A DNA stretch of 55,390 nucleotides from a virus, in IMG/VR virus record IMGVR_UViG_3300044984_002141, positions 1 through 55,390 of that record; one strand, 5' to 3'. The notes under the pieces are model-generated. The model was given only the letters and a program-made list of their open reading frames with translations. It ran no database searches and was not told the DNA's origin. Below, one piece after another: positions 1-48,711 of the stretch (position 1 is the stretch's first letter; the number at the start of each line of letters is the position of its first letter). The translations under genes and the position numbers were made by a program.

Positions 1-2
1 TG

Positions 3-1040: not shown

Positions 1041-1461
1041 ACAGGGGTTGTATAATCCCAAAAATCCTGATAAGTATATCGGAGATATTAAAAAAATCCG
1101 ATATATGTCATCATGGGAATTATCAATGCATTCATTTCTTGATAATAACTTAAAAATTATTAGGTGGAGCTCTGAAACTATTGCTGTACCATATGTAAAA
1201 CCAACTGATAATAAAATTCATCGATACTTTCCTGATTATTATGTGGAATATATTGATAAAAATAATAAAATGCGCAGACTTATTATTGAAGTTAAGCCGC
1301 ATAAGCAAACAAAAGTGTCGAGAGCACGCAACACTAAGAATAAAGTTTATGATGATATTCAATTAGCTGTTAATTTAGCTAAATGGAAAGCATGTACGGA
1401 GTTCTGTAATCATAATGGACTAGAATTTCAGATTATAACTGAAAAACAAATGTTCACTTAG
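1027..1461 (+). CDS. 4: Head completion protein, T4 gp4 family
   Basis: A 144-residue protein that closely follows the T4 gp4 head-completion family, which acts late in head maturation after DNA packaging and has a nuclease-like fold. The family signature is visible in order: NPDKYIGDIKKIRYMSSWEL near residues 13-32, WSSETIAVPYV near 47-57, HRYFPDYYVEY, then LIIEVKPHKQTK. The PD...E-x-K arrangement (PDYYVEY and IEVKP) resembles a PD-(D/E)xK nuclease core. The C-terminal AKWKACTEFC...FQIITEKQMF is also typical. The length matches the family (about 150 residues). It overlaps the preceding gene by 14 bases and lies just upstream of the terminase genes. Confidence 0.93.
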   Translation: MGRFKQGLYNPKNPDKYIGDIKKIRYMSSWELSMHSFLDNNLKIIRWSSETIAVPYVKPTDNKIHRYFPDYYVEYIDKNNKMRRLIIEVKPHKQTKVSRARNTKNKVYDDIQLAVNLAKWKACTEFCNHNGLEFQIITEKQMFT

Positions 1462-1472
1462 ATGTACATTCA

Positions 1473-1480
1473 TCTAAATA
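1473..1480 (+). promoter_or_regulatory. Late-promoter-like site (TCTAAATA)
   Basis: Matches 7 of 8 bases of the T4 late promoter TATAAATA and ends 25 bases before the small terminase start. It lies in the only gap between the gp4-like gene and the terminase genes. Assignment is by similarity and position only. Confidence 0.4.
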
Positions 1481-1504
1481 ATATTTTTTACAATAAGAAA
1501 TATT

Positions 1505-1924
1505 ATGTCTGGATCACTTAAGACTCACCCGTTTGAAAACATATTTGATATTGAATCAGGTACTACTTTGATTGAAACTCAAGCACTTGAAGTTATAAAC
1601 TCCACTACGTTTGATTTATACGATGAAAAAGATAAGGAAATTGAAGAACAGTATCAAACTGTGTATAATGCAGCATTTAACGCATTCTTATCTCAAGCAA
1701 ACGCTATGGATAGAGGAGCTGATCCTCGATATACACACTCAAATATGGAGGTTGCCAATCAATTCTTAGCGACCGCATTGCAAGCAGTTAAAGAAAAAGC
1801 CGATCTCAAGTACAAGAAAGAAAAAAACCAATCATCTAGTACAAAAAACATTACTAATAATAATCTTATCATTGATCGTAATGAATTACTAAAGCACTTA
1901 GGTGGGTTCACCCCGATAGAATAG
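1505..1924 (+). CDS. 16: Terminase small subunit, T4 gp16 family
   Basis: A 139-residue protein with the gp16-type central helical pair. DLYDEKDKEIEEQYQTVYNAAFNAF (residues 38-62) is followed by a second helix ending in EVANQFLATALQAVKEKADLK. In T4 this subunit forms the ring that regulates the large terminase motor and recognises DNA for packaging. The last 35 residues are Asn/Ser-rich, then a short helix (RNELLKHLGGFTP) that may contact the large subunit. It sits immediately before the large terminase gene, as in T4. The gap between the two contains a hairpin over the large-subunit ribosome binding site. Confidence 0.88.
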   Translation: MSGSLKTHPFENIFDIESGTTLIETQALEVINSTTFDLYDEKDKEIEEQYQTVYNAAFNAFLSQANAMDRGADPRYTHSNMEVANQFLATALQAVKEKADLKYKKEKNQSSSTKNITNNNLIIDRNELLKHLGGFTPIE

Positions 1925-1934
1925 TGAATATATA

Positions 1935-1960
1935 CTTGTTTTTATTATTAAAAACAAGGA
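1935..1960 (+). promoter_or_regulatory. Hairpin overlapping the terL ribosome binding site
   Basis: A perfect 9-base inverted repeat (CTTGTTTTT at 1935-1943 and AAAAACAAG at 1950-1958) with a 6-base loop. The AAG of the AAGGA Shine-Dalgarno sequence (1956-1960) is the 3' end of the stem, and the ATG follows at 1967. If folded, the hairpin would partly hide the ribosome binding site of the first large-terminase fragment. The stem is AT-rich, so its strength is uncertain. Confidence 0.45.
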
Positions 1961-1966
1961 TATAGT

Positions 1967-2566
1967 ATGTCTAGGAACGAGTACTTAAAAAAGCCTGGAG
2001 AGCTGGTTGAATACACCACTGACATGGTACGTGAGTTACAGAAGTGTAGTGTAGACCCAGTTTATTTCATTGAAAATTACATAAAAATCACTCATCCGAC
2101 AAAAGGACTGGTGCCATTTATATTATACGATTTTCAACGTGTAATGGTAAAAACATTTCATGAAAATCGATTTTCAATAGCGTGTGCGAGCCGACAAGTA
2201 GGTAAATCACAAACCTCATGTGCATTTATCTTATGGTATGTGTCATTTCACTCACATAAAAACGTATTAATAGCATCAAATAAAGCTAGTGGTGCAAAAG
2301 AGATGTTAACTCGTATATCAGAGATGTACGAGAATCTACCAAAATTTTTAAAACCGGGTATTGATCCATCGAACTGGAACAAACTATCCATATCATTTGA
2401 CAATAACAGTAAAATTATATCAGAAGCAACTACATTAAATAGTGGTCGGGGTATGTCTATATCATTACTATTCTGCTTAGGTGGTGAAACTAATGTAACT
2501 GTACGTAATAAGCGTACTGGTGAGGTTAGTGTTGTTAGTTTAGAACAGCTGTATGGAGGATTATAG
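1967..2566 (+). CDS. 17: Terminase large subunit fragment 1 (ATPase N-terminal part) fused to split-intein N-half
   Basis: First of three genes that together encode the T4 gp17-type packaging motor. Residues 1-169 are the start of the ATPase domain: an adenine-binding/Q region (LYDFQRVMVK), Walker A SRQVGKS at 75-81, and the coupling region up to RGMSISLLF, which is the hydrophobic strand of Walker B. Cys170 starts a 30-residue intein N-half, CLGGETNVTV through LEQLYGGL, then a stop. The terminase sequence resumes at the exact next residue in the gene starting at 3437. Alone this polypeptide lacks the catalytic acidic pair, so it should be inactive until trans-spliced. AAGGA precedes the ATG by 6 bases. 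Confidence 0.92.
   Translation: MSRNEYLKKPGELVEYTTDMVRELQKCSVDPVYFIENYIKITHPTKGLVPFILYDFQRVMVKTFHENRFSIACASRQVGKSQTSCAFILWYVSFHSHKNVLIASNKASGAKEMLTRISEMYENLPKFLKPGIDPSNWNKLSISFDNNSKIISEATTLNSGRGMSISLLFCLGGETNVTVRNKRTGEVSVVSLEQLYGGL
2474..2563 (+). other. Split intein 1, N-half (30 residues)
   Basis: Begins with the nucleophile Cys (codon 2474-2476) in block A context CLGGETNVTV and runs to the stop at 2564. At 30 residues it is much shorter than the usual 100-residue N-half, matching the atypical split class known from AceL-TerL and VidaL inteins. Its partner is the 109-residue C-half at 3437-3763; together they are about 139 residues, a mini-intein size. Trans-splicing activity is inferred. 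Confidence 0.88.
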
Positions 2567-2568
2567 TA

Positions 2569-3444
2569 ATGTTTGAATGTATAGACAACAAATATAAAGT
2601 GTGGTATTTTGCACTAATACAAAAACGGATATTATCTCCGTGCACTGATAGCCACACAGAATCGCACCATATACAACCCAGAGCGCTAGGTGGAACAAAC
2701 TTACCCAACAACTTAGTACAGCTAAGTGTACGAGAACATATTGTTTGTCATCAAATGTTAGTAAAATTTTTAAAGCACCCGTTAGCAAAACAAAAAATGC
2801 TACTAGCGTTGCATTTCTTATGTCATGGGAGGCACAAGGTTGATGAACGCAAAACTATAATGAATAAATTTTCAAGTAGATTGTTAGCAGAGCTACGTAA
2901 AAATTTACATGAGCCTAAATCTGTAGAGACTCGTGAGCGTATGTCCATTGCACGCACTGGTATCAAGCGAAAATATGAGCACTACATGAAGGTTAACACA
3001 GATCCTGAAAAGATTCGCAAAACTGCGGAGTTTCACAGAGGTAGAAAGCGTAGTGCTCAAACAAAATATAAACAAAGTGTACGTAAAAAAGAGTTCTTAT
3101 CGGTGAATAACCCGTTCAATAAAGGTAAGAAACAGTACTATGATCCAACTAATAGTTTGAACACTGGTGTATATTTTTCAGGTAGTGAGCCAGCCGGGTG
3201 GATATTAGGTAATCAAAAAGCACGAGGTACTAAAACTTGCTATAGTTTAGAAACAGGTGAAGTTAAACGATTTGCGGTGGATAGCATACCAGCTGGGTGG
3301 TTCATCGGGCACCCTAATAATAAGGGGTATGAGATGTATATTAATATACATTCAAATCAACATAAACGGATAAAACCCACTGCGATACCATTATGTGGTG
3401 AATGGGTTCACTGGACTAAATTTAACGAGGTGCGCCATGCGTAG
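2569..3444 (+). CDS. HNH homing-type endonuclease between the halves of intein 1
   Basis: A 291-residue free-standing HNH nuclease. The catalytic motif is clear: SHHIQPRALGG at residues 32-42, Asn-Asn-Leu-Val at 47-50, and Arg-Glu-His at 55-57. Behind it are basic NUMOD3-like DNA-binding modules (RERMSIARTGIKRKY, then GRKRSAQTKYKQSVRKK) and two PAGW(I/F)-containing C-terminal segments (EPAGWILG, IPAGWFIG). The gene starts 2 bases after the stop of terminase fragment 1. Its GGAGG (2555-2559) lies inside the intein N-half coding sequence. Its last 8 bases overlap the start of fragment 2. It probably promotes homing of the split intein into terminase genes that lack it, by cutting the uninterrupted site; this role is inferred from position. 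Confidence 0.88.
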   Translation: MFECIDNKYKVWYFALIQKRILSPCTDSHTESHHIQPRALGGTNLPNNLVQLSVREHIVCHQMLVKFLKHPLAKQKMLLALHFLCHGRHKVDERKTIMNKFSSRLLAELRKNLHEPKSVETRERMSIARTGIKRKYEHYMKVNTDPEKIRKTAEFHRGRKRSAQTKYKQSVRKKEFLSVNNPFNKGKKQYYDPTNSLNTGVYFSGSEPAGWILGNQKARGTKTCYSLETGEVKRFAVDSIPAGWFIGHPNNKGYEMYINIHSNQHKRIKPTAIPLCGEWVHWTKFNEVRHA

Positions 3445-3763
3445 TAATACAGAATATGAAATTTTATCACCAGATGGTCATTTTTATGATTTTAAAGGTG
3501 TAATTCAATCAACTAAAACCCTACATCAAATTAAGATACAAGATGGTGATGATATATGGGCGTCAGATAATCATATATTCTTTGTAAATGGTATTGCTAC
3601 TAAAGTGAGTAATTTGAGTGATTATGGATTCATTGATTCTATTGATGGTCCAATCGCGTATCAAAAAACATTCAATTATAACATCACTTATGCATATGAT
3701 GTAGTTGAATGTCAAGAAGAAGATCATTTATATACAATTAATAGTAGCATTATAACCCATAAC
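3437..3763 (+). other. Split intein 1, C-half (109 residues)
   Basis: Ends with THN followed by Cys+1 (TGT, 3764-3766), the standard C-terminal splice junction. Block B is visible as SDNH at residues 43-46, with Ser for the usual Thr of TxxH. Block F is visible in YAYDVVE...HLYTINSSIITHN. There is no endonuclease domain. All residues needed for splicing appear to be present when paired with the N-half at 2474-2563. Confidence 0.9.
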
Positions 3764-4129
3764 TGTGATGAGTTTGCATTTGTCGCCAATAATATTAGTG
3801 AGCATTTTTGGACTTCAATAAGTCCTACACTATCAACCGGTGGTAATTGTATTATCGCAAGCACACCTAATGGTGATGATAACTTGTATGCTGAGTTATG
3901 GCGTGGTGCTGAAAGTGGAGCTAATGGGTTTACACCTATATTTGTTAAATGGGATACAGTTCCTGGGCGAGATGAGCGATTTAGAGAGCAAGAAATTGCA
4001 AAGATTGGTCTCACAAAATTTCAACAAGAATATGAATGTCTGCGAGGTGATACATTAGTTACAATTTTAGATTCGTTCAACACAGAACGCACATTAACGC
4101 TTAAGGAATTATATGATGAATTTGAGTAA
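3437..4129 (+). CDS. 17: Terminase large subunit fragment 2: intein 1 C-half, middle extein, intein 2 N-half
   Basis: A 230-residue polypeptide with three parts. Residues 1-109 are the intein 1 C-half. Residues 110-200 are terminase: CDEFAFV carrying the Walker B/catalytic Asp-Glu at 111-112, and the coupling motif STPNG near 142-146, ending at TKFQQEYE. Residues 201-230 are the intein 2 N-half. I chose the ATG at 3437 because GAGGTG (3427-3432) precedes it by 4 bases and it overlaps the stop of the HNH gene, suggesting coupled translation. A longer open frame from 3395 has no such signal. The order C-half, extein, N-half is the layout used in artificial protein circularisation. The fragment has the ATPase catalytic acids but no Walker A. 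Confidence 0.92.
   Translation: MRSNTEYEILSPDGHFYDFKGVIQSTKTLHQIKIQDGDDIWASDNHIFFVNGIATKVSNLSDYGFIDSIDGPIAYQKTFNYNITYAYDVVECQEEDHLYTINSSIITHNCDEFAFVANNISEHFWTSISPTLSTGGNCIIASTPNGDDNLYAELWRGAESGANGFTPIFVKWDTVPGRDERFREQEIAKIGLTKFQQEYECLRGDTLVTILDSFNTERTLTLKELYDEFE
4037..4126 (+). other. Split intein 2, N-half (30 residues)
   Basis: Cys at codon 4037-4039 begins block A (CLRGDTLVTI) directly after the terminase motif FQQEYE. It runs for 30 residues to the stop at 4127. It has the same length as the intein 1 N-half and a similar block A, so the two inteins are related. Its partner is the C-half at 5020-5349. Confidence 0.88.
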
Positions 4130-5033
4130 TATTTCTAATCTATTAGCTCAAAAATATGTTATTTCTCCATTAGATGGCAACCAGTATTGTAGAGCAAACG
4201 GATACTTTAAGCGTCACTTACACGACAACGGATTTAATTCATACCATGAGTTTTTTAGATCTATGTATCCAACACTAATACAGCATTGTAAATTTTGTGG
4301 TGTTGAGTGTTCATTTAATAATACAACTATGCAATATAAAATTACATGTGGCGACAGAAAGTGTCAAGGTAAGTTAACATCAGAAATTCTTGCAAGTAGG
4401 GATGATAATTATTGGCCTACAGTGCTATCTCGCAGGTATGAAACGATTAGTAGTCAACCTATTGAATATAAACGTAAAATAATAGAAAAACGTGTGGCTG
4501 AGTGTATTGCGCGGGGTTCTTATCAAAAAGCAGTTGCGGTACGTGAGCAAACATGTTTATTGCGTTACGGTGATAGTAAGTATAATAATAGCACTCAAAT
4601 ATCTAAATCAAAATTAAATTGGACTCCAGAGCGTAAAGCACTATACCATGAACGGTTTTTACAAACCACAGGAGGTAAAAAGCTATACGAGTTTCACACC
4701 ACTGAAACCTGGTATAATAGGTCTATTCGATTACACGAGAGAGGATTAGCGGTTCATCCAGATGAGAGATCAGCCTTACGGTTATATCGGCTTGCAGTTC
4801 AAAGATTAACTGAACAAAATTATAAACAGCATAAGCATATTATTAATCCAAATAATTATACACGAGCAACTAAAAAAGATTGTGAATTAGCATATCACTT
4901 AGATCATATTATACCGATCGTATACGGGTTTGCGCACAATATACCGGTTGATACTATTGCATCGGTTGACAATCTACAGATGTTACACTATAAAGAAAAT
5001 ATTTCAAAAGGAGCTAAGTATGTCAGCATTTAG
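4113..5033 (+). CDS. HNH homing-type endonuclease between the halves of intein 2
   Basis: A 306-residue nuclease of a different type from the one in intein 1. The HNH core is at the C-terminus: HLDHIIP at 262-268, DNLQML at 286-291, and N296 with SKG at 298-300. Near the N-terminus there is a Cys cluster (C59, C62, C66, C79, C84) that could bind zinc. The centre contains TCLLRYGDSKYNNSTQISKSK-like sequence, resembling the LRYG-x-x-N modules of phage homing enzymes. AAGGA at 4103-4107 precedes the ATG by 5 bases, inside the intein N-half. The gene overlaps fragment 2 by 17 bases and fragment 3 by 14 bases. It probably mobilises intein 2. Confidence 0.85.
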   Translation: MMNLSNISNLLAQKYVISPLDGNQYCRANGYFKRHLHDNGFNSYHEFFRSMYPTLIQHCKFCGVECSFNNTTMQYKITCGDRKCQGKLTSEILASRDDNYWPTVLSRRYETISSQPIEYKRKIIEKRVAECIARGSYQKAVAVREQTCLLRYGDSKYNNSTQISKSKLNWTPERKALYHERFLQTTGGKKLYEFHTTETWYNRSIRLHERGLAVHPDERSALRLYRLAVQRLTEQNYKQHKHIINPNNYTRATKKDCELAYHLDHIIPIVYGFAHNIPVDTIASVDNLQMLHYKENISKGAKYVSI

Positions 5034-5349
5034 AGCTAATAATAAAGGGTATCAAATTAAAACACCATATGGATATGAGCCTTTTGCTGGTATATCAATG
5101 AATGGTGTTAAACCAGTTATAAAATTATCGTTATCTAACGGTAAAACAATCACTGGTACCGAAAACCATATCTTATTCACCTCAGATAAATTAGAACGAT
5201 GTATAGGTAATATTAAAATTGATGATGTGCTTGATGGGATAGTACACACGACTGTTACCGGTGTTGTCGCTGATGGAAGTGCTGAAGTCTTTGATGTAAT
5301 TGAAGTACCATCTCATACATTTTATGCAAACAGTGTTGTTAGCCACAAC
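5020..5349 (+). other. Split intein 2, C-half (110 residues)
   Basis: Ends VVSHN before Cys+1 (5350-5352). Block B is TENH (TxxH) at residues 47-50, and block F is EVFDVIEVPSHTFYANSVVSHN. No endonuclease domain is present. With its 30-residue N-half it would form an intein of about 140 residues. Confidence 0.9.
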
Positions 5350-6138
5350 TGTCATTTTATTAGTAATGACCCGTTATTGTTTAGTTCTATCGGGCTTAGT
5401 AATTATTTTGTTACAGAGATGCCTGCACCTGATGCTAGGGGGATTGTATTCTTTGAACCAATTGAATACGGTAAAACATATTTAATAGCTATGGATCCAG
5501 CAACAGGCACTGGAAGTGATTACACTGTTATAGTAATGTATAGTTTTCCAGATATGGTGCAAATTGCAGAATATCGAGCAAACACTGTTTCATCACCTGC
5601 GGTGTATCATGTACTCAAATATCTACTTAAACTACTTGAAAAATCTAGAGCTGCTAACGCTTATTGGAGTCTAGAAAATAATGGTGTCGGTGAAGGTATC
5701 ATTAGCATGTATGAATCTGATGAAAATCCTGCTGAATTTGGTGAACTTGTATCTGAAGCTGGTAGACGTAGAATAGGCTTTACAACTGGTAAAAATAAAG
5801 CTAAGCATTGTATGACTTTTAAGAATTTATTTGAAGCCGGTAAGATTATTGTGCGTTCACGTAATACTATCTCAGAAATGAAGAATTATATACGTAAAAA
5901 TGGATCATATGCAGCTAGAGTAGGTAGTACAGACGATACAATTTCAGCACACTTAATTTTAATTAGAATATTAGAAGAGATTACATCATACGAAGATCAA
6001 GCGTATGATATCATGTATAAAGATGAATTCTTAAACGAATTTGATAATAATGAAGAGCAATGGGAAGAACCAGCTCCTATCGTGACTAGTAATGATTTTA
6101 ACGAAGCGGATATGTTCAAGCACCTAGAAATGTGGTAA
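5020..6138 (+). CDS. 17: Terminase large subunit fragment 3: intein 2 C-half fused to nuclease domain
   Basis: A 372-residue polypeptide. Residues 1-110 are the intein 2 C-half. From Cys111 (CHFISNDPLLF) it is the terminase C-terminal part. The RNase H-like nuclease motifs are visible: AMDPATGTGSDYTVI with Asp159 and Asp167, ENNGVGEG with Glu219, and STDDTISAHL with Asp305-306. I chose the start at 5020 because AGGAG (5009-5013) precedes it by 6 bases; the open frame extends back to 4930 without a signal. The three exteins (169, 91 and 262 residues) sum to about 522 residues, somewhat shorter than T4 gp17 (610). Residue-by-residue continuity at both junctions matches gp17. Confidence 0.93.
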   Translation: MSAFRANNKGYQIKTPYGYEPFAGISMNGVKPVIKLSLSNGKTITGTENHILFTSDKLERCIGNIKIDDVLDGIVHTTVTGVVADGSAEVFDVIEVPSHTFYANSVVSHNCHFISNDPLLFSSIGLSNYFVTEMPAPDARGIVFFEPIEYGKTYLIAMDPATGTGSDYTVIVMYSFPDMVQIAEYRANTVSSPAVYHVLKYLLKLLEKSRAANAYWSLENNGVGEGIISMYESDENPAEFGELVSEAGRRRIGFTTGKNKAKHCMTFKNLFEAGKIIVRSRNTISEMKNYIRKNGSYAARVGSTDDTISAHLILIRILEEITSYEDQAYDIMYKDEFLNEFDNNEEQWEEPAPIVTSNDFNEADMFKHLEMW

Positions 6139-6187
6139 TTTGAGGAAAAATCATGTATAATTGAATAGTATAAACTAGGAGATTACC

Positions 6188-7717
6188 ATGATTTCAGTAA
6201 AGGATGCAGCCATTATTTCAAATGGCTCTAACATATCAATAAATTCATTATTTGACATTACACCTACAACCAAATACTTATATCTTAACACATATGGTAG
6301 TAATCGTGTAGTGTCTACTGTAACCCCAAGTAGTGGTGTGCTGTTAGCCAACAATAAAGTTGTTAGTAGTACACCATACTGGGGGTACACCGCTACTACT
6401 ATACTATTTGAATTAAAAAATAATCAATATGTTAGTAGTAAATACGGTAAATTATCAGATATAGTGTTTCAACCTGCAAAATCTAACTATTTAAATTTAA
6501 TATCAATAGCAACTGCAGATAAATTTGACCCAGGGTTATTATTTAATATGGCTGATCCCGGGCAAATCGTTACAGAAATGAGCATTAATCAATATTCAGC
6601 ATCAATACTCACTATGCCTGGTGCAACTGAAAAAACACCTACTATACCTAATATTATTAATACAGCTAACTCATTTATAGGTAAGACATGGAATATTAGT
6701 GGTGGCTGGGCGCTAGTAGATACAATCTCAGCATTATGTGGTACATCATTACCTATGAGTAGTATTAGTACATGGAATCATTTTCAAGGTAATGATAACT
6801 GGGTGGTTAAGTACAATGGTTTAGCTCCAAAAGGTGATTGGAAAACTATGATTGCACCTGGCGATGTTATATTTCTAAGTGATGATTATATGAGACATAG
6901 CACTGCAGCTATTTGTGTAGCTGGAAACGGTATTAATGCTATGGTGGTTGACAACGTTACAACTGCAAACAACAGATTAAATTCACAAGATCTCACAATA
7001 GCTCCAGCTCACTTATTAAGTACTGAGGACGTGTATAATTATACACCAAATAGTCGTGCTTTTATACTTACACTTAAAAATCAAACAGTTCCAGTTGTAT
7101 CTCCACCAATAAATAACAAATATGTTATACGTGGTGTATACGATATGACTGTTAATCCGGTTGATGATATTAAATTAGGTTGCAACGAAGCATTTACTGT
7201 AACGTTAAATAATGTATTTAAGTATGGAAACCCAAATACAGCTATATCTACAACTGTAACCGGTCTACCTAGTTGGGTTAAGTATAATTCATCAACGGGA
7301 TTATTATATGGAACTTCACCAAAAATTGCAAGTAATGTTGAGATTTCTTACAACTTTAAGGTTGGTACATTTACTGGATCTGATAAGATGAAAATAATTG
7401 TTGATCCTACACAATTAGTAGATATTAAAAATACCGCGTGGACGGTTGGCACTGTTAATAGTTTATCTATAAATAAACAATGCACAGATACATATTATTA
7501 CACAGTAAAAACTCCGGATGATATGAGTTGGTTACAAATAGATCAAGTAAACGGTATTTTATTTGGAACGCCACCTGCAATAGGTCTTGGACATAAGTAT
7601 AGTATCACAATATGTCAGCAACATGACGCATTATCATATGCATCTCATGTTGATAATTTTACATTATCTATTATTAACCCAATCACTTTGACTGGTTTGC
7701 AAACAGGTATTACATAA
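6188..7717 (+). CDS. Virion protein with papain-like (NlpC/P60-like) domain and two putative Ig domains
   Basis: A 509-residue protein in three regions. Residues 1-150 are not recognised. Residues about 155-290 resemble an NlpC/P60 or amidase-like fold: SFIGKTWNISGGWALVDTI, then PGDVIFL and MRHSTAAICVAGNG...MVVDNV. The usual Cys of a G-C-W-x-L-x context appears as GGW, so it may be inactive. Residues about 340-405 and 425-500 look like He_PIG/cadherin-like repeats (GLPSWVKYNSSTGLLYGTSP and MSWLQIDQVNGILFGTPP). CTAGGAG precedes the ATG by 6 bases. It sits between terminase and the fibre array, so a tail appendage or adhesin role is likely. Function beyond this is inference. Confidence 0.5.
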   Translation: MISVKDAAIISNGSNISINSLFDITPTTKYLYLNTYGSNRVVSTVTPSSGVLLANNKVVSSTPYWGYTATTILFELKNNQYVSSKYGKLSDIVFQPAKSNYLNLISIATADKFDPGLLFNMADPGQIVTEMSINQYSASILTMPGATEKTPTIPNIINTANSFIGKTWNISGGWALVDTISALCGTSLPMSSISTWNHFQGNDNWVVKYNGLAPKGDWKTMIAPGDVIFLSDDYMRHSTAAICVAGNGINAMVVDNVTTANNRLNSQDLTIAPAHLLSTEDVYNYTPNSRAFILTLKNQTVPVVSPPINNKYVIRGVYDMTVNPVDDIKLGCNEAFTVTLNNVFKYGNPNTAISTTVTGLPSWVKYNSSTGLLYGTSPKIASNVEISYNFKVGTFTGSDKMKIIVDPTQLVDIKNTAWTVGTVNSLSINKQCTDTYYYTVKTPDDMSWLQIDQVNGILFGTPPAIGLGHKYSITICQQHDALSYASHVDNFTLSIINPITLTGLQTGIT

Positions 7718-7739
7718 CTACAATTTTTTAAGTTGATAT

Positions 7740-9140
7740 ATGACGACGAATACACTTACTATTAATTACACTGATACCACCAAATCTAGTATACAGATAC
7801 CACTCGGTGGAATTAACACGTCAACACCATTATCGTTATATGGACTTGGCACAACAAATTATGGTGCAGACTTGTGGGCTAATATGCTGCACCTAATGGA
7901 GAATTTCTGTAATTCGACACCTCCATCAAATCCTGTTATCGGTCAATTATTTTACAAATCCACCACTAAAACTCTTCAGTTATACACTGGGCTAAACGCT
8001 AGCGGATTAGCAAACTGGGTTACATTAATAACAATAGATCCAGCTAGTACCACAGGTAATGCATTTGCTACATACTTACCACTAGCTGGTGGTATCATAA
8101 CTGGTGATTTAATTTTAACAACAGAGTTTACAAACATAAATACAGTTAAGCCTGGACTAAATGAAAATCGTGCCGCAACTATAAGATACGTGGATTCGCT
8201 ATTAGCTGGCTTTTCATTACAAAACACAACCGCTATTACAAATACTGTTAAACAAGCTACAGATTTACCATTTATTTACACTGGTAGTACTGCAACATTA
8301 GCGCAAAGAACGATGGGTGCACCATTAAAATTACCATCAGAAGGTTATGGTAGTGATGGTAGATTATTAGTTGCAAATGTAACTACGCCGACTAATGAAT
8401 TATTTGCAGCAACTAGAAAGTACGTTGATGCAAAAGTAGCTACAATTATTCCAGGTGTTGCAAACACGGTAACTACAGCAACATTATCTGCAGAAATTAA
8501 AAAACTAACAGATTTACCATTTGTATATAACAATATATTAGTGGGAGAAGTTTCAAGTCGTATAGCGTCTATGACGATGAAATCTGATTTGATATTACCC
8601 GCGTATGCAACTGGTACGTCCGCTAAAGTTAGTTATGTAAATCATGCTGCAACAAGAGCATATGTTGATGATTCTATATACGGGTTATCTACTACAATTA
8701 CAAGCTATATTGATACAAACATGCCTGACATGTCTGCATTATTATATGGTAGTCAAATTACTTCTAATCAAAACATATCGCACACATCATACTTAGTTGT
8801 TGGTGATCATATATCGGTCACTGGTGTTGCACAATGTTCGATATATCCCAAACCTGCGACAGCAACAGCTGATGAAAGAATATATTACTACGCATTAATA
8901 CCATTTAGTGATATATTACCGCAATCTGTTACATTCTCACATCACAAGTACTCAGTTCAAGCAGATTTTGCGGATATAGATTTAGTACCATATGGTCGGC
9001 AGCCATACAGTAATTCATTTTTATATAAAAAATTAAATACATCACTAATTATCTACTTATTAGTTGCACCGACTACTACAGCATTAGCCACTGCATTTGT
9101 ACCAACCGCGTTTAGCTTTACGATTAACGGGACCAAATAA
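7740..9140 (+). CDS. Fibre-like virion protein, array A member 1
   Basis: A 466-residue protein. The N-terminal 85 residues form the array A module: TPLSLYGLGTTNYGADLW, HLMENFCNSTPPSNP, then IGQLFYKSTTKTLQLY. This module is common in marine phage tail and fibre proteins. Three copies of the fibre-stem motif AATxxYVD follow (AATIRYVD, AATRKYVD, AATRAYVD), then a unique beta-rich C-terminus of about 130 residues likely to form the distal tip. There is no strong Shine-Dalgarno sequence. Its stop overlaps the next start (TAATG). Host receptor binding is inferred from architecture. Confidence 0.65.
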   Translation: MTTNTLTINYTDTTKSSIQIPLGGINTSTPLSLYGLGTTNYGADLWANMLHLMENFCNSTPPSNPVIGQLFYKSTTKTLQLYTGLNASGLANWVTLITIDPASTTGNAFATYLPLAGGIITGDLILTTEFTNINTVKPGLNENRAATIRYVDSLLAGFSLQNTTAITNTVKQATDLPFIYTGSTATLAQRTMGAPLKLPSEGYGSDGRLLVANVTTPTNELFAATRKYVDAKVATIIPGVANTVTTATLSAEIKKLTDLPFVYNNILVGEVSSRIASMTMKSDLILPAYATGTSAKVSYVNHAATRAYVDDSIYGLSTTITSYIDTNMPDMSALLYGSQITSNQNISHTSYLVVGDHISVTGVAQCSIYPKPATATADERIYYYALIPFSDILPQSVTFSHHKYSVQADFADIDLVPYGRQPYSNSFLYKKLNTSLIIYLLVAPTTTALATAFVPTAFSFTINGTK

Positions 9141-11704
9141 TGACGACGAATAATAATTACCTTATAGCATATAGTAACACTACTAAACCAAGTATCAACT
9201 TAACACCTGGGCAGATAGATGCAACAAGTACATCATTAACATTGTTTGGGTATGGTGCTAAAGAGTACGGTAAAGGACTAATGTCTAATACAGTAAAATT
9301 ATTAGAAAATTTTTGCAATACAACCGCACCTAATAACCCAATTGAGGGTCAATTATGGTTTAATTCGAGCACAGCTACATTAAATGTATGCTACCGGGCA
9401 ACTGGTGGGTCGTTGAGCTGGAAATCAGTTGCGCCAGTAGGTGGATGGGACAGTACTGGTGGATCTACGACTAGTTCAATTACTGTCGAGAGTGGTGCTG
9501 CAACTAAAGCAGATCTCAGTTCGTATATACCGATCAATGGACTCATCGGTAATATGGCTACTGGTAGTATGACGGGTGATTTAAAGTTGTACAATAACCC
9601 AAATTGGTATACTACAAATGCTCAAGGATTAACTGTAATTAACGAAGCGGTTACAGCAGATTTAAGTAACTGTGCTGCAACTAGAAAATATGTAGATCTT
9701 AAAGTAGGTAGCGTCGTTGTTGCTCAAAATAAAGCGACTGATTGGAATGTAACACCTGCTCAATTAATAACAATGATTGAAAGTGGTGCTAGCCCGTACA
9801 TAAAACGTGTTGCAACTAACCCAACTGATAATGTAATGGTTAGTCCATTAATTTTACGTAATCAATCAAACCCACAAACAGTTGGTTTATATGAGGCGGT
9901 AAATAAACAATATGTTACCTCTGTGGCTGAATCTATTGTAACTGGTATGAGTACTGGGACAGGTACAGTGCCACAGTATATCAAGGATTTATTATTAGGT
10001 TATGTACCAATTGCAGGTATTAGTAACAGTAGCTTTACAGGAATTACTTCTCATTTACCTGTGCTTGATGAACCTAGTTGGTACAATGCTGATGGAACAT
10101 TAAGCCTTACTGCTAAGATTCCCAACAACTACGCTGCAACTATAAGATACGTTAATACTAAGGTAGCTGACGCACTTAAATCAACAGGTGGTGGTATTAA
10201 TTGGCCTGTATCGTCATCAGTAGTTATTGCAAAGATTAATGAAGATGCTGGTGGTGGACCGTATATACATAAGAACTCTACAGATGCTGGGTTCCGCACC
10301 ATGGCTAAACAATTGTTTTTGCGGTCAGATCAGACAGCTGATAATGTGGTTGATAAGGAGGCTGTGAGTGCTGGCGTTGTACGTACACTAATAAACAATA
10401 GTAAGCCTACAGATATAGATAGTGCAAAGTTGTTAGCTGCATTAAACGCATTACCAGCCGCAGTTAAACCGTGGCCTACTCAAACAAATCAACAAGCATC
10501 CATTGATACAACTGAGTTAGATAAGGCGACTAAAGCTGCAAATGAAGCCGCTAAAGCCGCTGCTGATGCGTTATCAGAATTAAAGAAGGCAGATTCAAAT
10601 GACGCGGACACGCTTGACAAGCTCATTAAGAATGCAGAGGCCGCTACAAAAGCTGCAAATGAAGCTGCCGGAGCTGTTAATAAAGCTGCAACCGATGCCG
10701 CAGGTAAAGCAGTTGTAACAACACCAGGTATCGACACAGTATCAAGCGGTTTGACAGATCTAATTGGGCAAGCAAATGAAGCTGCAAGACTCGCAAATGA
10801 AGCAATAAAAACTGAAGCAGCTGGTACTGATACGTTAACTAAGTTAATAAAAGATGCAGAAGCTGCTGCGCAAAAAGTAACTGATGCGATAGCATTAGCA
10901 GGTAGGACGACTATTACGACAAATACCACGAGTGGTGTTGATGTAAGTGGGTGGAACAACACAACTGTATCACCTACACTAGCAGATACTTATACGCAGG
11001 CTGGTAAAGTGTATATGAAGGATCGTGAGCGGATATCATATTCAAAATTACCAGATGGCACATTAATAATCTCAGGTTATTATCGTAAATTTGGTCTGTG
11101 CCACGCTGGTGATGCTGTTGATTGGGTAACCTCCATAGATAAAATTAGATTTCCATCTGGATATAATTTTATTGATCCGTTTTACTCTGTTACAATTACA
11201 GAGGTGTCTCATAACACCCGTTGTGCTGATCAAATAGTTGGATCTAGTGATGCTAGACATAGAGGTGGTTTCTGGGATGGTTCACTTGCTCGTGATGGCT
11301 GGTATAACTGGCCGGGGGCTGCGTTGCTTAATTGCGATATTGGTCGAACATATACCGCAGCTCAACTAGCTCCCTACCCACAGGGTCCAAGATATCCATG
11401 GGCTGAAACAAAAAATGAATCATTCCCGACAGGTACTGCTCATCCATCAAGTGATCCTCCTGCTGATTTTGAACCGTATATATATTATCAGCCAAGCGAT
11501 ATTCTAGGTGTAACATATAACAATGAGGTTAAGAGATTTAACTCGTTGTATAACGAGTTTGCTGTACCGCCATGTACTTGGATGTCGTATGATCAAGCTA
11601 CAGATGGGTTTAAAATAAGTGGCTGCGTGAACAAGGCTGTTACCTGGCTATACGCACGCAACACGTTATCGTGTAATTTCACCGCAATCGGTAGATGGAA
11701 ATAA
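9140..11704 (+). CDS. Large fibre-like virion protein with Ala-rich coiled coil, array A member 2
   Basis: 854 residues, the largest of the six array A paralogs. The N-terminal module (TSLTLFGYGAKEYGKG, KLLENFCNTTAPNNP, EGQLWFNSSTATLNV) is followed by AATRKYVD/AATIRYVN stem motifs. An Ala/Lys/Glu-rich segment spans about residues 453-595 (repeats such as AATKAANEAAGAVNKAA) and is probably a long trimeric coiled coil. The last 240 residues are unique, rich in Tyr/Trp/Pro and probably the receptor-binding head. Start and stop are coupled to its neighbours (TAATG overlap upstream, 3 bases to the next gene). Confidence 0.65.
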   Translation: MTTNNNYLIAYSNTTKPSINLTPGQIDATSTSLTLFGYGAKEYGKGLMSNTVKLLENFCNTTAPNNPIEGQLWFNSSTATLNVCYRATGGSLSWKSVAPVGGWDSTGGSTTSSITVESGAATKADLSSYIPINGLIGNMATGSMTGDLKLYNNPNWYTTNAQGLTVINEAVTADLSNCAATRKYVDLKVGSVVVAQNKATDWNVTPAQLITMIESGASPYIKRVATNPTDNVMVSPLILRNQSNPQTVGLYEAVNKQYVTSVAESIVTGMSTGTGTVPQYIKDLLLGYVPIAGISNSSFTGITSHLPVLDEPSWYNADGTLSLTAKIPNNYAATIRYVNTKVADALKSTGGGINWPVSSSVVIAKINEDAGGGPYIHKNSTDAGFRTMAKQLFLRSDQTADNVVDKEAVSAGVVRTLINNSKPTDIDSAKLLAALNALPAAVKPWPTQTNQQASIDTTELDKATKAANEAAKAAADALSELKKADSNDADTLDKLIKNAEAATKAANEAAGAVNKAATDAAGKAVVTTPGIDTVSSGLTDLIGQANEAARLANEAIKTEAAGTDTLTKLIKDAEAAAQKVTDAIALAGRTTITTNTTSGVDVSGWNNTTVSPTLADTYTQAGKVYMKDRERISYSKLPDGTLIISGYYRKFGLCHAGDAVDWVTSIDKIRFPSGYNFIDPFYSVTITEVSHNTRCADQIVGSSDARHRGGFWDGSLARDGWYNWPGAALLNCDIGRTYTAAQLAPYPQGPRYPWAETKNESFPTGTAHPSSDPPADFEPYIYYQPSDILGVTYNNEVKRFNSLYNEFAVPPCTWMSYDQATDGFKISGCVNKAVTWLYARNTLSCNFTAIGRWK

Positions 11705-11707
11705 TCT

Positions 11708-12376
11708 ATGGCTATTATAGATATTGTATTATCAGATAAAAGTAAGAGTAGCGTAAAATCTACATCAATTAGTAGCATGAAGTATGTAGATTTTACATCT
11801 GCAAACTATGGTGCTGATTTTTGGAGTAATATACTACGATTAACAGAGAATTATAGTAGTGTTAACCCACCTAATTTTCCAATTGAGGGCCAGCTGTGGT
11901 TTAATCCCAACACATTTGCACTTAATGTTGCCACTGTCGATGCAAATAAAAACGTAGTATGGACTATAGTTAGTGATGTATACGACGATACAACTGTAGG
12001 TTATATTGATCGATATAAGCGTAATATTATTCTCAACATATCTGTACCAGCAACAACAGAGCCTACTATCTACGATGGACCGTATAAAACTAGTAATCAT
12101 GCTGCTACAAAGAAATTTGCAGATGAATGGCATGGTGGTATTGTACACGGTAGCGATAAGATATGTAATTGGAATATATTTCCAAACAAGTACTGTATTA
12201 TAAACGGAAATGCTGGGGGAGCCATCAAGCTACCATTTACTATGTTTGATACAAACTACGCAGTAATTTTAACTAATATCGATACTGCGAGTACATCACA
12301 ATACGCATCTAGCAAAACCACAACAGGTTTTTACGCCTCAAACAATTCATGGATGGTGGTAGGTTATAAAGCATGA
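11708..12376 (+). CDS. Short fibre-like virion protein, array A member 3
   Basis: 222 residues. It has the array A N-terminal module (YVDFTSANYGADFW, LTENYSSVNPPNFP, EGQLWFNPNTFALNV) and one stem motif (AATKKFAD). The C-terminal 70-residue beta domain (LPFTMFDTNYAVILTN through TTTGFYASNNSWMVVGY) resembles the gp53-like fibre C-terminal domain. The stop overlaps the next ATG (ATGA). It is a short version of the same design as its neighbours, with the long stem missing. Confidence 0.6.
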   Translation: MAIIDIVLSDKSKSSVKSTSISSMKYVDFTSANYGADFWSNILRLTENYSSVNPPNFPIEGQLWFNPNTFALNVATVDANKNVVWTIVSDVYDDTTVGYIDRYKRNIILNISVPATTEPTIYDGPYKTSNHAATKKFADEWHGGIVHGSDKICNWNIFPNKYCIINGNAGGAIKLPFTMFDTNYAVILTNIDTASTSQYASSKTTTGFYASNNSWMVVGYKA

Positions 12377-13077
12377 AATATAATATAACACACGCTAATG
12401 GTACATCGTTAGTATTTGACGATCAAGCAGTGGATAATAAGAGTACGTCACTTACATTTGCTGGACAAACAAATAGTTTATACAGCTACTATTTTTGGTC
12501 TAATTTAGCACACTTGATAGAGAATTTTGCTGGGCCAAACTCACCTGATAATAAAATTGTAGGTCAGTTATGGTACGATAACACAAAAGGGGCTAATGCG
12601 TTAAAGGTATACACTGGTCAAACATGGCAGTCAGTTGCTGCACAAGTTGAAGATATGTCTGGCTACGCACTACATCAATCAACTACTCTATCCAGTCATT
12701 TAATTTTACCAGAAAATCCAATATCTACTGCAACAAATATTGCTGTAACTAGAGGATATATTGAAAAAACTTACAGATATAAGTTTAAAACGGAAAGTAC
12801 TGCGGATATTAAGTATATTAGACATAATAATAATTATATTGTTTGTCATAGTATAGTTACTCCACTAACTGCAGATACGCGTACGGTACAGGTATTGCTA
12901 CCATATGTTATGGCGGATGATAATTATGCAATATCATTATCCATTAATAGTGTAGATACAGCAACACATGGTGAGGTGTATGCATTTTCTACAAATAAAA
13001 CTAAAACTGGGTTTACTATAGTTGCAACTAATACATTCCCATCAATTGCATGGGTAGTAATGGGGTTTTCTGAATGA
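12373..13077 (+). CDS. Short fibre-like virion protein, array A member 4
   Basis: 234 residues. The N-terminal module is clear (STSLTFAGQTNSLYSYYFW, HLIENFAGPNSPDNK, VGQLWYDNTKGANALKVY). One stem motif (AVTRGYIE) and the same C-terminal beta domain type as member 3 follow (LPYVMADDNYAISLSI, KTGFTIVATNTFPSIAWVVMG). It starts on an ATGA overlap with member 3 and ends on an ATGA overlap with member 5. A tail fibre role is inferred from family and array position. Confidence 0.6.
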   Translation: MKYNITHANGTSLVFDDQAVDNKSTSLTFAGQTNSLYSYYFWSNLAHLIENFAGPNSPDNKIVGQLWYDNTKGANALKVYTGQTWQSVAAQVEDMSGYALHQSTTLSSHLILPENPISTATNIAVTRGYIEKTYRYKFKTESTADIKYIRHNNNYIVCHSIVTPLTADTRTVQVLLPYVMADDNYAISLSINSVDTATHGEVYAFSTNKTKTGFTIVATNTFPSIAWVVMGFSE

Positions 13078-13802
13078 GTACTAAAGTTCAATTTACAAAT
13101 AGATCTAAGCCTGCAATATACATTGCAGATTACGAATATAATTACCAGACTCCTCTTGCGATGTATGGTAAGCATGTGATGGATTATGATGCAGTAACTT
13201 GGTCAAACTTACTACATAAGCTTGAAAATTGGAGCAATAGTTCAGCACCTGAAAACGCGCTCGAAGGTCAGTTGTGGTGGGATAATAGAAACAATCAATT
13301 AATGATTAATATCGGTAAAGATATGTCTAATCCTAATTGGCGGTACGTAACTAAAAATTCAATTGATACGAAATCATTATTACGTATTTCTGGTGGTACA
13401 TTGTATAATGATTTAGTATTAGTTGATGATGTTATAGAGGATGAGCAAGTAGCTACTATTGATTATGCAGCGAGTGTAAACACAATTGTACCTACTTCAT
13501 TAAACAATAATTACCAACATAACATTTTACCTTATAGTGGATTTATGACATTTAACGGGTGTATAGTTAAGGCTGACTTCATTAATAATATTTGTGTAAT
13601 CCCAACACGGTTTACCATGGTTAATACTAGCTATTCAGTAACAGTATCAATTTCAATGAATACTAGTGCAAGGCAATTAAATTATGATTTTAGATATCAT
13701 GTAGTAGACAAAACGATTAAAAGCTTTAAAATAATAACCGAACAAACTATACCAGATGATTGTGAGATCAATTTTGTCTTAGTTGGGAATATTCAAGCGT
13801 AA
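13074..13802 (+). CDS. Short fibre-like virion protein, array A member 5
   Basis: 242 residues. The N-terminal module is visible (TPLAMYGKHVMDYDAVTW, LHKLENWSNSSAPENA, EGQLWWDNRNNQLMI). The stem motif is degenerate (VATIDYAASV). The C-terminal beta domain is again of the gp53-like type (TRFTMVNTSYSVTVSI ... INFVLVG). The gene overlaps member 4 by 4 bases. A 43-base gap with a weak late-promoter-like CTAAATA (13806-13812) separates it from member 6. Confidence 0.58.
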   Translation: MSTKVQFTNRSKPAIYIADYEYNYQTPLAMYGKHVMDYDAVTWSNLLHKLENWSNSSAPENALEGQLWWDNRNNQLMINIGKDMSNPNWRYVTKNSIDTKSLLRISGGTLYNDLVLVDDVIEDEQVATIDYAASVNTIVPTSLNNNYQHNILPYSGFMTFNGCIVKADFINNICVIPTRFTMVNTSYSVTVSISMNTSARQLNYDFRYHVVDKTIKSFKIITEQTIPDDCEINFVLVGNIQA

Positions 13803-13845
13803 AAACTAAATACCATATAACAGATAATTACAGGTACATTATACT

Positions 13846-15474
13846 ATGCCATATTCAATTACCCACACTAATAATGGTAGCGGTGGGGTTACCATCATAT
13901 TAGATGATAATCAAGTCGACGAGTCTACCTCGCTTACACTACTCGGTAGAGGTCATCCAAACTACGGTCAAGTACTATGGACTGATTTTATAAAGCTATT
14001 AGAAAATTTTTACGGTCCTACTCAACCATCAAATCCAATTACCGGTCAATTGTGGTATAATAGTAATACAAATTCAATATACGTTAATAAAATCACTGCA
14101 GGTGCTGTAACTGGTGGCAACATAGCGGCGTCTAATGGTAGTCAATGGTCTCCACTTGCAGATCACGCATACCTTGCAACTAACTATAACCCTACCACTC
14201 TTGTAAATAATTCAGTAGATGGATTAGTACAACGTTTATCTGGCTCGGACCCAAATGTAAAGTCTGCATTATTAACCTTACTTACTGGTACATATTTACC
14301 AATAGCTGGTGGTACAATAACTGGTAGATTGCAAGTACCGCAACTGGTACCGGGATCAGCTAATGACCCTGAGTTAACAGCTAATCAATATCTAGCGGTT
14401 GGCTGGCTCAATATGAAAAACTACGTAATTAAGTACGTGGGAGATGAATTACTAACAGTTAAGTCTAGATTGCAAGCACTTGAATCAGCTGGTACGGGAA
14501 CAGGTACTGGTACAGGTACTGTACCATCAGCTGGTTCTGCACTATCTGGGTTTGAAAACCTATCATACGGTATTGGATACGATCCAAGTGGTAGTACTAC
14601 AAACTATGTGCGCAGCGTTGGTGCGGTAGCTACATCAAAAGCATCATCTACTCAATGGATCAACACTAACTTATCAGTTCCACCCATCGATCTTGGTGAT
14701 GTAGATAATGCCCATGATAGTTATGCAACACCTAAAAGTTATGTTGATGGTAAAATTACAGCAGGTACTTTGCTCGCAAGCAGCACACAAGTTTTTACCA
14801 CCACCCAAACTGCAGCTAGAGCTATTAAACTACCGGTATTTCCAGAGGCTGTGTTACCTGGTGGTACGGAAAATACAAATGTTAATTACGATCAATATGC
14901 AGTTACTAAAAAGTATGTAGATGTTGGTTTATCTGGTGCTAATTTAACAAAAATCTTGAGCAAAAGTCAAGATTTTAGAAATAGTTTATCGGGTATAGCA
15001 TCTGGTGCGCTAGCAATACCATCAATTCCTATAACAAACTTCAGTGGAAAAGTATTAGCAATTAACTCGTCTGGATCTGCATTAGAATGGATTGCATCAT
15101 CCACTCCAGTTACTAATACAATTGGATTTAGTAGTTCAAGTTATATTAAGCAAAGTAACAACATGGTTACGGTGTTTGGTGCGGTAGCTGCATCCACACT
15201 AAGACGAAGTGCTAACGTGTTTAGTAATAATATTCAACCATGGGAAGTTACTATAATTATACCTAACAACTTTACACTAAGTGTTCCATATGATGTACAT
15301 GCAACATTTACTCCAAACCCGGCAGCGCAATCGTCCACCGGATTTGTAGGTACAATGAATTGTTATATTACGGCAATGACTGCAACAAGTTTTACATTAG
15401 GTATTATCTGTAATCCTGCAGCATTAACAAGTGATAAAATTGCATACACTATTAACGGCTTAGTTACAAACTAG
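13846..15474 (+). CDS. Fibre-like virion protein, array A member 6
   Basis: 542 residues. The N-terminal module (TSLTLLGRGHPNYGQVLW, KLLENFYGPTQPSNP, TGQLWYNSNTNSIYV) is followed by stem motifs (YATPKSYVD, YAVTKKYVD). A Gly-Thr linker (GTGTGTGTGTVPS near residue 220) resembles the shorter STGTGTVP linker in member 2. The C-terminus (INTNL..., SSSYIKQSNNMVTVFGAVAAS, then PNNFTLSVPYDVHATF) is a fibre-tip-type beta domain. It is the last gene of the first rightward operon. Its 3' end overlaps the convergent gene by 11 bases. Confidence 0.62.
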   Translation: MPYSITHTNNGSGGVTIILDDNQVDESTSLTLLGRGHPNYGQVLWTDFIKLLENFYGPTQPSNPITGQLWYNSNTNSIYVNKITAGAVTGGNIAASNGSQWSPLADHAYLATNYNPTTLVNNSVDGLVQRLSGSDPNVKSALLTLLTGTYLPIAGGTITGRLQVPQLVPGSANDPELTANQYLAVGWLNMKNYVIKYVGDELLTVKSRLQALESAGTGTGTGTGTVPSAGSALSGFENLSYGIGYDPSGSTTNYVRSVGAVATSKASSTQWINTNLSVPPIDLGDVDNAHDSYATPKSYVDGKITAGTLLASSTQVFTTTQTAARAIKLPVFPEAVLPGGTENTNVNYDQYAVTKKYVDVGLSGANLTKILSKSQDFRNSLSGIASGALAIPSIPITNFSGKVLAINSSGSALEWIASSTPVTNTIGFSSSSYIKQSNNMVTVFGAVAASTLRRSANVFSNNIQPWEVTIIIPNNFTLSVPYDVHATFTPNPAAQSSTGFVGTMNCYITAMTATSFTLGIICNPAALTSDKIAYTINGLVTN

Positions 15475-16836: not shown

Positions 16837-17559
16837 TTACCAGTTAATTGCTTTAGAGTAAGTGATTGGATCTTCAATACCAATATTTTTAAATGCCATG
16901 ATACGCTCTGCACAGCTTGGACATACACCACATGAATGTCCATGCTCATCTACATCATAACAGGTAACAGTTTTACTATAATCACAGCCTAACTTTAAAC
17001 CAATACGTAATTCTTCAGTTTTATTCAACGAAACCAATGGAGTAAATACATCAATCTTATGCATTCGATTTAAATCAACCACACTTTGCAGTGCCGCAAC
17101 AAATTCAGGAGTAGTATCCCAATAATTATACTGATCATTCGAATTTAAACCTAGAGCTATTGCTTCACACTCATTTGCTTCTGCAAACGATAAGATCATA
17201 GATGAAAACAATAGATTACGGAACGGTACGTATGTAGGTGGCTGTGGATTACCTAATATATCCACAATAGTAGGCATTTCAATATCTGAACCTTTAATAT
17301 TAGCTGATACTTTACGAGCAATATTACCTAAGAACGAAATATCTACGATATGATGATGAACACCTAGTGCTTCACATGATTGTCTAGCAAGTTCAACTTC
17401 AATGCTTTGCTTTTGCTGATACGTAAAGCTAACAGGAAACACATTATCATTACCATACCGATCAACTAACATGTATAATAACGTAGTACTATCTAATCCA
17501 CCAGATAACGATAGTGCAACTTTAGATACCTCGGGAAAATTTATATTTTCTAATGACAT
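16837..17559 (-). CDS. queC: 7-cyano-7-deazaguanine (preQ0) synthase QueC
   Basis: 240 residues, normal QueC length. The PP-loop ATP site SGGLDS is at residues 19-24. The zinc-binding Cys cluster is C200, C210, C213 and C216 (CGVCPSC context), and the family segment PTYVPFRNLLFSSMILSFAE lies in the middle. QueC converts 7-carboxy-7-deazaguanine to preQ0 using ATP and ammonia. In phages preQ0 or its derivatives are often inserted into DNA to resist restriction. GAGGTG precedes the ATG. A TTGATA-17-TATAAT promoter lies just upstream. folE and queE are in the same accessory block; queD and a DNA transglycosylase are not in this window. Confidence 0.95.
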   Translation of the reverse strand: MSLENINFPEVSKVALSLSGGLDSTTLLYMLVDRYGNDNVFPVSFTYQQKQSIEVELARQSCEALGVHHHIVDISFLGNIARKVSANIKGSDIEMPTIVDILGNPQPPTYVPFRNLLFSSMILSFAEANECEAIALGLNSNDQYNYWDTTPEFVAALQSVVDLNRMHKIDVFTPLVSLNKTEELRIGLKLGCDYSKTVTCYDVDEHGHSCGVCPSCAERIMAFKNIGIEDPITYSKAINW

Positions 17560-19681: not shown

Positions 19682-20353
19682 ATGAAATGCGATGAACAAT
19701 TAGGACTTAAAGTGCGTGAGCACTTAATCTCAAAAGGTATTGAAACACCTATGATAACTCCAGTGCTTACAGAGCAGGAGCAAATTGAAAAAATTGAAGA
19801 TCATATGCGTTCAATATTAACTGCGTTAAACTTGGATCTAACTGATGATAGTTTACAAGAAACACCGCATCGAGTTGCAAAAATGTATGTGCGTGAGATT
19901 TTTTCAGGTTTAGATTACAAGAATTTTCCAAAATGTACAGTAATTGAAAACAAAATGAGCTGTGCAGATGAATTTGTATTAGTTAAGAATATTACCCTGC
20001 AATCATCATGCGAGCATCACTTATTACCAATCTTAAATTTGAAAGGCGGTGGTTGTCATGTTGCTTATATTCCAAAAGACAAAGTAATCGGGCTAAGTAA
20101 GTTAAATCGGGTAGTTAAGTTTTTTGCAAGACGTCCACAAGTGCAAGAGCGCTTAACGCATCAGATTATGGAAGCATTGTGCTTTATTTTAGGTACTGAT
20201 GATGTTGCTGTTGAGATTAGTGCAGATCATATGTGTGTAATGACACGTGGGGTTGAAGATGCTACTAGTACAACAACGACCGCTGCTATGAACGGTCGTT
20301 TTAGAGATGACGCGGTAATTAGATCTGAGTTCTTCAGCTCAACTAAATCTTAG
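19682..20353 (+). CDS. folE: GTP cyclohydrolase I
   Basis: 223 residues, typical FolE length. The zinc site is present: C110 and H113 in SSCEHHLLP, and C185 in [11 protein letters not shown]. Other FolE signatures are [11 protein letters not shown] (60-70), [15 protein letters not shown] (129-143) and [13 protein letters not shown]. The enzyme converts GTP to 7,8-dihydroneopterin triphosphate, the first step towards preQ0. AGGTGG precedes the ATG. Together with queE and queC in this block it supports a phage-encoded 7-deazaguanine pathway. The gene overlaps the convergent unknown gene by 11 bases. Confidence 0.96.
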
Positions 20354-27242: not shown

Positions 27243-27284
27243 TGTAAATCGACCCTATTTTTGATTTTCCGAGATGAGCAATTA

Positions 27285-42618: not shown

Positions 42619-42959
42619 TAGAGTTAGAGTATGCTACATATCTTGTTACATTTAATAATAAAATATCAAGTGATCTTACTAACTTACCTGATGGTATATA
42701 CAAGTTTTCAATAATAGTAAATGGAGTTTCATCTGATATTATATTAAACTGTATTGGAATAGTAACATTTAATGATTTAGCTAGGCTGTTAGATTATCAT
42801 ATGAGACGATACGGTATTAAGGTATGGCTTGTCGATAATGGTTTACATTTTAGTGGGTTAAAACCCGCTACACAAACAATTAATGTGCCTGAATACTTGG
42901 TAGGTGATGCAGATTGGTTATGGGCAAATATATCTGGCTATGTACCAGTAGGTGTGTAA
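42615..42959 (+). CDS. Stand-alone second module of array C
   Basis: 114 residues corresponding only to the second array C module: GIYKFSIIVNGVSSDIIL, ARLLDYHMRRYGIKVWL, ending DWLWANISGYVPVGV. It lacks the array C N-terminal module and the RLLTHLIFDP module. It overlaps the upstream gene by 4 bases and ends 1 base before the next ATG. It may be a real single-domain protein or the remnant of a broken longer gene. Confidence 0.5.
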   Translation: MIELEYATYLVTFNNKISSDLTNLPDGIYKFSIIVNGVSSDIILNCIGIVTFNDLARLLDYHMRRYGIKVWLVDNGLHFSGLKPATQTINVPEYLVGDADWLWANISGYVPVGV

Positions 42960-42960
42960 C

Positions 42961-45078: not shown

Positions 45079-45081
45079 TTT

Positions 45082-46425: not shown

Positions 46426-46438
46426 TTGGTAATATTTT

Positions 46439-47584: not shown

Positions 47585-47585
47585 T

Positions 47586-48710: not shown

Positions 48711-48711
48711 T

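Follow-up and report, generated by a model that had tools for sequence, protein, structure and literature searches.

In CBA120 (TSP1-4, Ackermannviridae) and in RaK2 (gp526-gp534), several receptor-binding proteins are held together by conserved N-terminal domains (PMC8825819, PMC10253068). The stretch 42-78 of TSP4 comes after the intertwined anchor helix and builds a triangular sheet assembly with three-fold symmetry (PMC8825819). The T4 genes for gp9-gp10-gp11-gp12-wac are tandem baseplate and fibre genes that overlap by 1-4 nt. XacN1, a jumbo phage of Xanthomonas, has been characterised as a phage of wide host range; its description states that electron microscopy showed no tail fibres and reports no tail-fibre homologues (PMC5852040).

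The DNA analysed here is a stretch of 55,390 nucleotides from a virus (IMG/VR record IMGVR_UViG_3300044984_002141, positions 1 to 55,390; hereafter the window), in which six consecutive plus-strand ORFs (7740-15474; Table 1) begin with the same N-terminal module of about 80 residues and diverge afterwards. A literature search for such paralogue arrays in jumbo phages returned nothing relevant. From gene 1 to gene 6 the junctions measure -1, 3, -4, -4, and 43 nt (negative values are overlaps); the overlap of starts and stops reported in a preliminary description of this DNA therefore holds at three of the five junctions (1, 4, and 4 nt) and not at the two with gaps of 3 and 43 nt. That description also held that the genes are made together rather than switched, which agrees with the finding of neither a plus-strand terminator-like site nor an inverted-repeat switch when the array was scanned. 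The window DNA was likewise searched for long near-perfect inverted repeats flanking the fibre genes; none was found, and phase variation or a shufflon was rejected on that ground. The tight packing suggests that the six genes are read from one transcription unit, to which the upstream neighbour on the same strand may also belong. The central stretch of the protein encoded by this neighbour resembles, by eye, a degenerate NlpC/P60 domain.

Table 1. Coordinates and layout of the six fibre genes and their upstream neighbour in the window.
Feature	Coordinates	Strand	Length (aa)	Anchor	Shaft	C-terminal part or other domains
Upstream neighbour	6188..7717	+	509	without module		He_PIG immunoglobulin-like domains
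Fibre gene 1	7740..9140	+	466	aa 1-82 (7740-7985)	repeats end AATIRYVD / AATRKYVD / AATRAYVD	tip from ~aa 331
Fibre gene 2	9140..11704	+	854	aa 1-84 (9140-9391)	repeats 9673-9710, 10132-10169; Ala-rich heptad-like stretch ~10514-10909	large tip from ~aa 620
Fibre gene 3	11708..12376	+	222	11708-11944	single AATKKFAD unit, 12095-12126	short C-terminal domain
Fibre gene 4	12373..13077	+	234	12373-12615	single AVTRGYIE unit, 12736-12767	short C-terminal domain
Fibre gene 5	13074..13802	+	242	13074-13319	degenerate unit	short C-terminal domain
Fibre gene 6	13846..15474	+	542	13846-14085	PIAGG unit 14286-14325; YVD units 14724-14761, 14898-14935	tip from ~aa 420

All six tightly packed frames are intact. 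Because an independent contig (IMGVR_UViG_3300046011_003973, 16.7 kb; L098) carries five of the six fibre genes in the same order, the array is no assembly artefact; the two sequences are 99.6% identical over 13,444 bases, and the frames are again intact as far as the contig reaches, which is to a point inside gene 5. Positions 1-13444 of the window differ from this contig at 48 sites, of which 47 lie before position 8783 and one after it (p ~3e-8 for an even spread, by hand estimate). Such a skew points to recombination, or to a mosaic produced during assembly, and places the boundary within fibre gene 1.

The reading of the six ORFs as tandem paralogs with one N-terminal module was borne out by pairwise BLASTP among the members (E 1e-5 to 1e-20) and by leave-one-out profiles, in which the left-out member scored 58-93 bits against a profile built from the other five and the best non-member in the window scored 13. 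The best-scoring other proteins of the window were those encoded at 37382-38980 and 27261-31178 (6-13 bits); what the former has in common with the module seems, by eye, to be no more than a QHWF-type hairpin. Comparison of the gene 6 module with the whole 55-kb record gave exactly six matches and no further copy in the window. All six conform to the consensus Y..I...-YG..l.eNf..LLENF...P.nP..GQLWyd, with invariant columns Y40, E53-N54, P61, and G67-Q68-L69 (gene 6 numbering); the motif originally given, LxLENF...P..P..GQLW, captures a real module and is looser than written, since gene 3 has ENY, gene 5 has ENW, and gene 1 has GQLF. None of the six had a significant domain hit in a Pfam scan, the module being absent from Pfam, and the module profile had no match among PDB sequences. 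In PHROGs essentially the anchor alone was matched: all six N-termini hit phrog_15511 and/or phrog_14394 (best E per protein 4e-8 to 8e-4), an uncharacterised family of which phrog_14394 is named 'virion structural protein'.

An AlphaFold model of the gene 6 anchor (98 aa, 74 sequences) had a mean pLDDT of 81 and comprised short strands, a helix at residues 40-53, and a hairpin at 69-80. All matches of the anchor to solved structures were weak (Z below 5, no Foldseek E below 0.7) and involved the hairpin part alone; residues 55-93 matched CBA120 TSP3 (Z 4.4), TSP4 42-78, i.e., the sheet after its anchor helix (Z 2.4), and, also weakly, the trimerisation domains of collagen XV/XVIII, the N-terminus of Mtd, and the fibre of cyanophage A-1(L). 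Trimerising beta prisms and phage fibres account for several of the matched structures. In BFVD the model matched fibre-type proteins of phages, with E values as low as 4e-7; several of these are known to carry the same anchor. The matches to solved structures suggest that the hairpin makes the trimer while the helix and the preceding strands dock, and the likeness of the hairpin to trimerisation prisms indicates that each protein is probably a homotrimer.

The anchor is followed by shaft-like units with the pattern PLAGG..TG.L.L ... N.AAT.KYVD. They are recognisable in the DNA itself, as direct repeats, in five genes of the array and, by eye, in decayed form in gene 5. The tips of genes 3 and 4 are related (36% over 59 aa) and that of gene 5 weakly so (E 0.02), and the tips of genes 1, 2, and 6 matched no other tip in the array. 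Searches of the six proteins against Pfam and PHROGs detected no enzymatic or receptor-binding domain in any tip, and searches with the tips in viral contigs returned the near-identical contig alone, or nothing. An AlphaFold model of the whole gene 4 protein reached a pLDDT of 31, too low to show a fold for its tip.

Relatives of the module are widespread: a scan of viral contigs gave at least 552 candidate stretches encoding one, and the profile matched at least 239 ORFs in at least 84 loci. Among the matches listed (84 loci), 236 of the 237 5'-complete ORFs carry the module no more than 20 residues from their start, the usual array consists of three or four genes in tandem (48 loci with three, 11 with four), neighbouring module genes are less than 150 nt apart in 143 of 155 pairs, and six copies occur in the window and XacN1 only. 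The copy number per phage ranges from 1 to 6; PA5oct has five, and Atu_ph07, Phosso, K64-1, RaK2, and 121Q have one strong copy each. The array in the window is an enlarged case of a widespread, unnamed fibre family.

In XacN1 the module genes are the consecutive ORF232-ORF237 (locus L089), which encode proteins of 401-746 aa annotated as hypothetical. In a module tree (80 columns), which was for the most part poorly resolved, the six of XacN1 form one clade (100% SH-aLRT) and genes 1-3 of the window another (99%), gene 3 being on a long branch. Since each array has its own supported clade, the two most likely grew separately, and the XacN1 set is an expansion distinct from that of the window. 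As XacN1 with its six module genes showed no fibres, the module genes may encode short pins instead of long fibres.

PA5oct, a Pseudomonas jumbo phage (Wroclawvirus), carries the same anchor, by profile, in five copies at two places, namely gp316-gp318, in tandem and close to the annotated tail sheath gene, and gp358-gp359, which follow a pair made up of a baseplate wedge and a giant structural protein. The RefSeq record marks each of the five proteins with an ESI-MS/MS flag, which for this relative contradicts an absence from the virion, the outcome that the preliminary description had named as speaking against its reading. The C-terminus of gp358 is the T4 Gp10_C domain (85 bits, cut-off 27). 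The module is not strictly N-terminal, because gp316 carries an internal copy at about residue 246. The tips of the PA5oct proteins are unlike those of the window in sequence.

In 82 sampled module proteins of relatives, the C-terminal domains included Phage Tail Collar (20/82) and the Peptidase_G2 intramolecular chaperone (12/82). In most sampled relatives the array stands directly behind a giant structural protein (~3,100 aa) and then a ~203-aa protein; in L056, the one relative tested, the former is phrog_10938 with baseplate-wedge PHROG matches and the latter phrog_11259. In typical relatives the array is a trio whose gene order and lengths are conserved, and in the two arrays checked the first gene bears Collar. 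In the window, phrog_10938 proteins lie at 27261-35281 and three phrog_11259 copies at 39464-43776, and the module array is elsewhere, just after the terminase genes; either the array moved, or the common order of the relatives never applied in this lineage. The three phrog_11259 paralogues are accompanied by a related 114-aa piece, and L056 has one ~203-aa copy right before its array. A second run of six adjacent ORFs (43837-51515; 374-496 aa), most starting M(Y/F)I.Y, has no PHROG function; those at 43837 and 46439 are clear paralogues and the rest marginal. The terminase large subunit itself is found in three ORFs (1967-2566, 3395-4129, 4930-6138) with two intein-like junctions and with freestanding homing-endonuclease-like ORFs between the pieces (2569-3444, phrog_655; 4113-5033, no Pfam match), and the region 1967-6138 has the appearance of a single fractured gene containing two split inteins. 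Beyond the array, QueC (16837-17559, minus strand) and GTP cyclohydrolase I (19682-20353) are encoded, possibly as a 7-deazaguanine pathway, perhaps for DNA modification.

Taken together, it is quite probable that the six are virion fibre or pin proteins of a T4-like phage, which share a docking and trimerisation module, are co-expressed, and are assembled together at the level of the baseplate; their presence in the virion would follow from that of their homologues. Co-transcribed from one closely packed unit, each protein would be trimerised into a homotrimer by its anchor hairpin, and the module would dock on the tail, probably at baseplate level as PA5oct and the synteny of relatives indicate, while the C-termini may reach the host surface or neighbouring fibres, as the architecture and the collar and chaperone domains of relatives suggest. 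The whole would constitute a multi-component adsorption apparatus whose members differ in shaft length and C-terminal domain.

The preliminary description offered a library of tips or a hetero-oligomeric appendage, and the comparative data fit the latter, in a form like T4 gp10-11-12, better than a pure tip library. Two finer readings, each compatible with the general account above, bear on this. That none of the proteins can replace another, all being parts of a single baseplate or tail-pin assembly in which only one or two touch the host, we hold tentatively, at just short of an even chance: the three fixed-order genes of conserved lengths that relatives keep behind the baseplate giant protein, the Gp10_C domain of PA5oct gp358, and the same kind of short overlaps in T4 g9-g10-g11-g12-wac argue for it, whereas none of the six in the window has Collar or Gp10_C, the array is beside a terminase gene instead of behind the giant protein, and the copy number varies among phages. 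It is possible, but somewhat unlikely, that they form a receptor repertoire in which a common socket carries six alternative tips, each recognising a different host surface, as in CBA120 TSP1-4 and the RaK2 fibres. A common anchor bearing tips that lack detectable relatives in viral contigs besides one near-identical contig would fit such a repertoire, as would the six copies reached independently by this phage and by XacN1, described as of wide host range (PMC5852040), and the 7 amino-acid changes among the 12 differences in gene 1 between the near-identical contigs. Against it are the lack of an enzymatic or receptor-binding domain in the tips by the Pfam and PHROGs searches and the kinship of three of the six tips, the short ones, which does not suit a library of unrelated tips.

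The tips of related phages, whose comparison had been proposed as a check, also speak against a repertoire, as they mostly stay with their anchor. Among close relatives, taken as those with anchors of at least 80% identity, tip and anchor go together in nearly all pairs, and at 80-90% anchor identity the median tip identity is 70%, with unlike tips in 2% of pairs. One clear swap was found in the sample (L025:4716-5780 vs L015:567-1808; anchor 89%, tip 22% identical); rampant tip swapping between relatives, for which the data were tested, was not seen. The broader proposal of a six-way repertoire on one kind of socket, with a widespread anchor and a copy number that expands independently as hosts diversify, appears doubtful. 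It is improbable that the array includes duplicates that are dispensable or decaying, with the three short genes as the first candidates: genes 1, 2, and 3 do group as in-phage duplicates with gene 3 on its long branch, and genes 3-5 are short, but the six packed frames are intact here and again in L098, where genes 2 and 3 are identical to those of the window.

In many uncultured T4-like and jumbo phages, whose fibres would otherwise escape recognition, the anchor serves as a marker of adsorption genes. Fibre tips have no database relatives and are annotated as hypothetical, and the anchor lets the sets be found and counted in metagenomic phages; XacN1 is a telling case, having six module genes although its paper reports no tail-fibre homologues. 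Moreover, it makes testable whether larger fibre sets go with a wider host range.

Among the described systems, T4 is linked to the window by the tandem, overlapping arrangement of its baseplate and fibre genes and by the gp10- and collar-type C-terminal domains that sit on the same anchor in relatives; the Pfam scan found neither Gp10_C nor Collar in the six of the window, unlike these relatives. The module profile had no significant match to T4 gp6-gp12 and wac (best 4.2 bits, to an off-position gp10 segment), and homology with the gp10 N-terminus, prompted by an 'NENF' resemblance, was rejected for want of profile support. The TSP1-4 proteins of Ackermannviridae and the branched fibres of RaK2 appear to differ in having other N-terminal domains (D1/D2, XD), and they differ in their enzymatic beta-helix bodies: the six had no Pfam or PHROG match to the gp10-like XD and D1/D2 head domains and a weak fold match to TSP4 42-78, and Pfam detected in them no pectate-lyase-like or other enzymatic domain that would mark a beta-helical depolymerase body. 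The RaK2 module protein, ORF065, lies outside the fibre cluster of that phage; its identification as gp098, the baseplate-bottom receptor binder, proved wrong. By analogy, the set of six in the window most likely resembles T4 gp10/11/12 or the TSP sets of Ackermannviruses.
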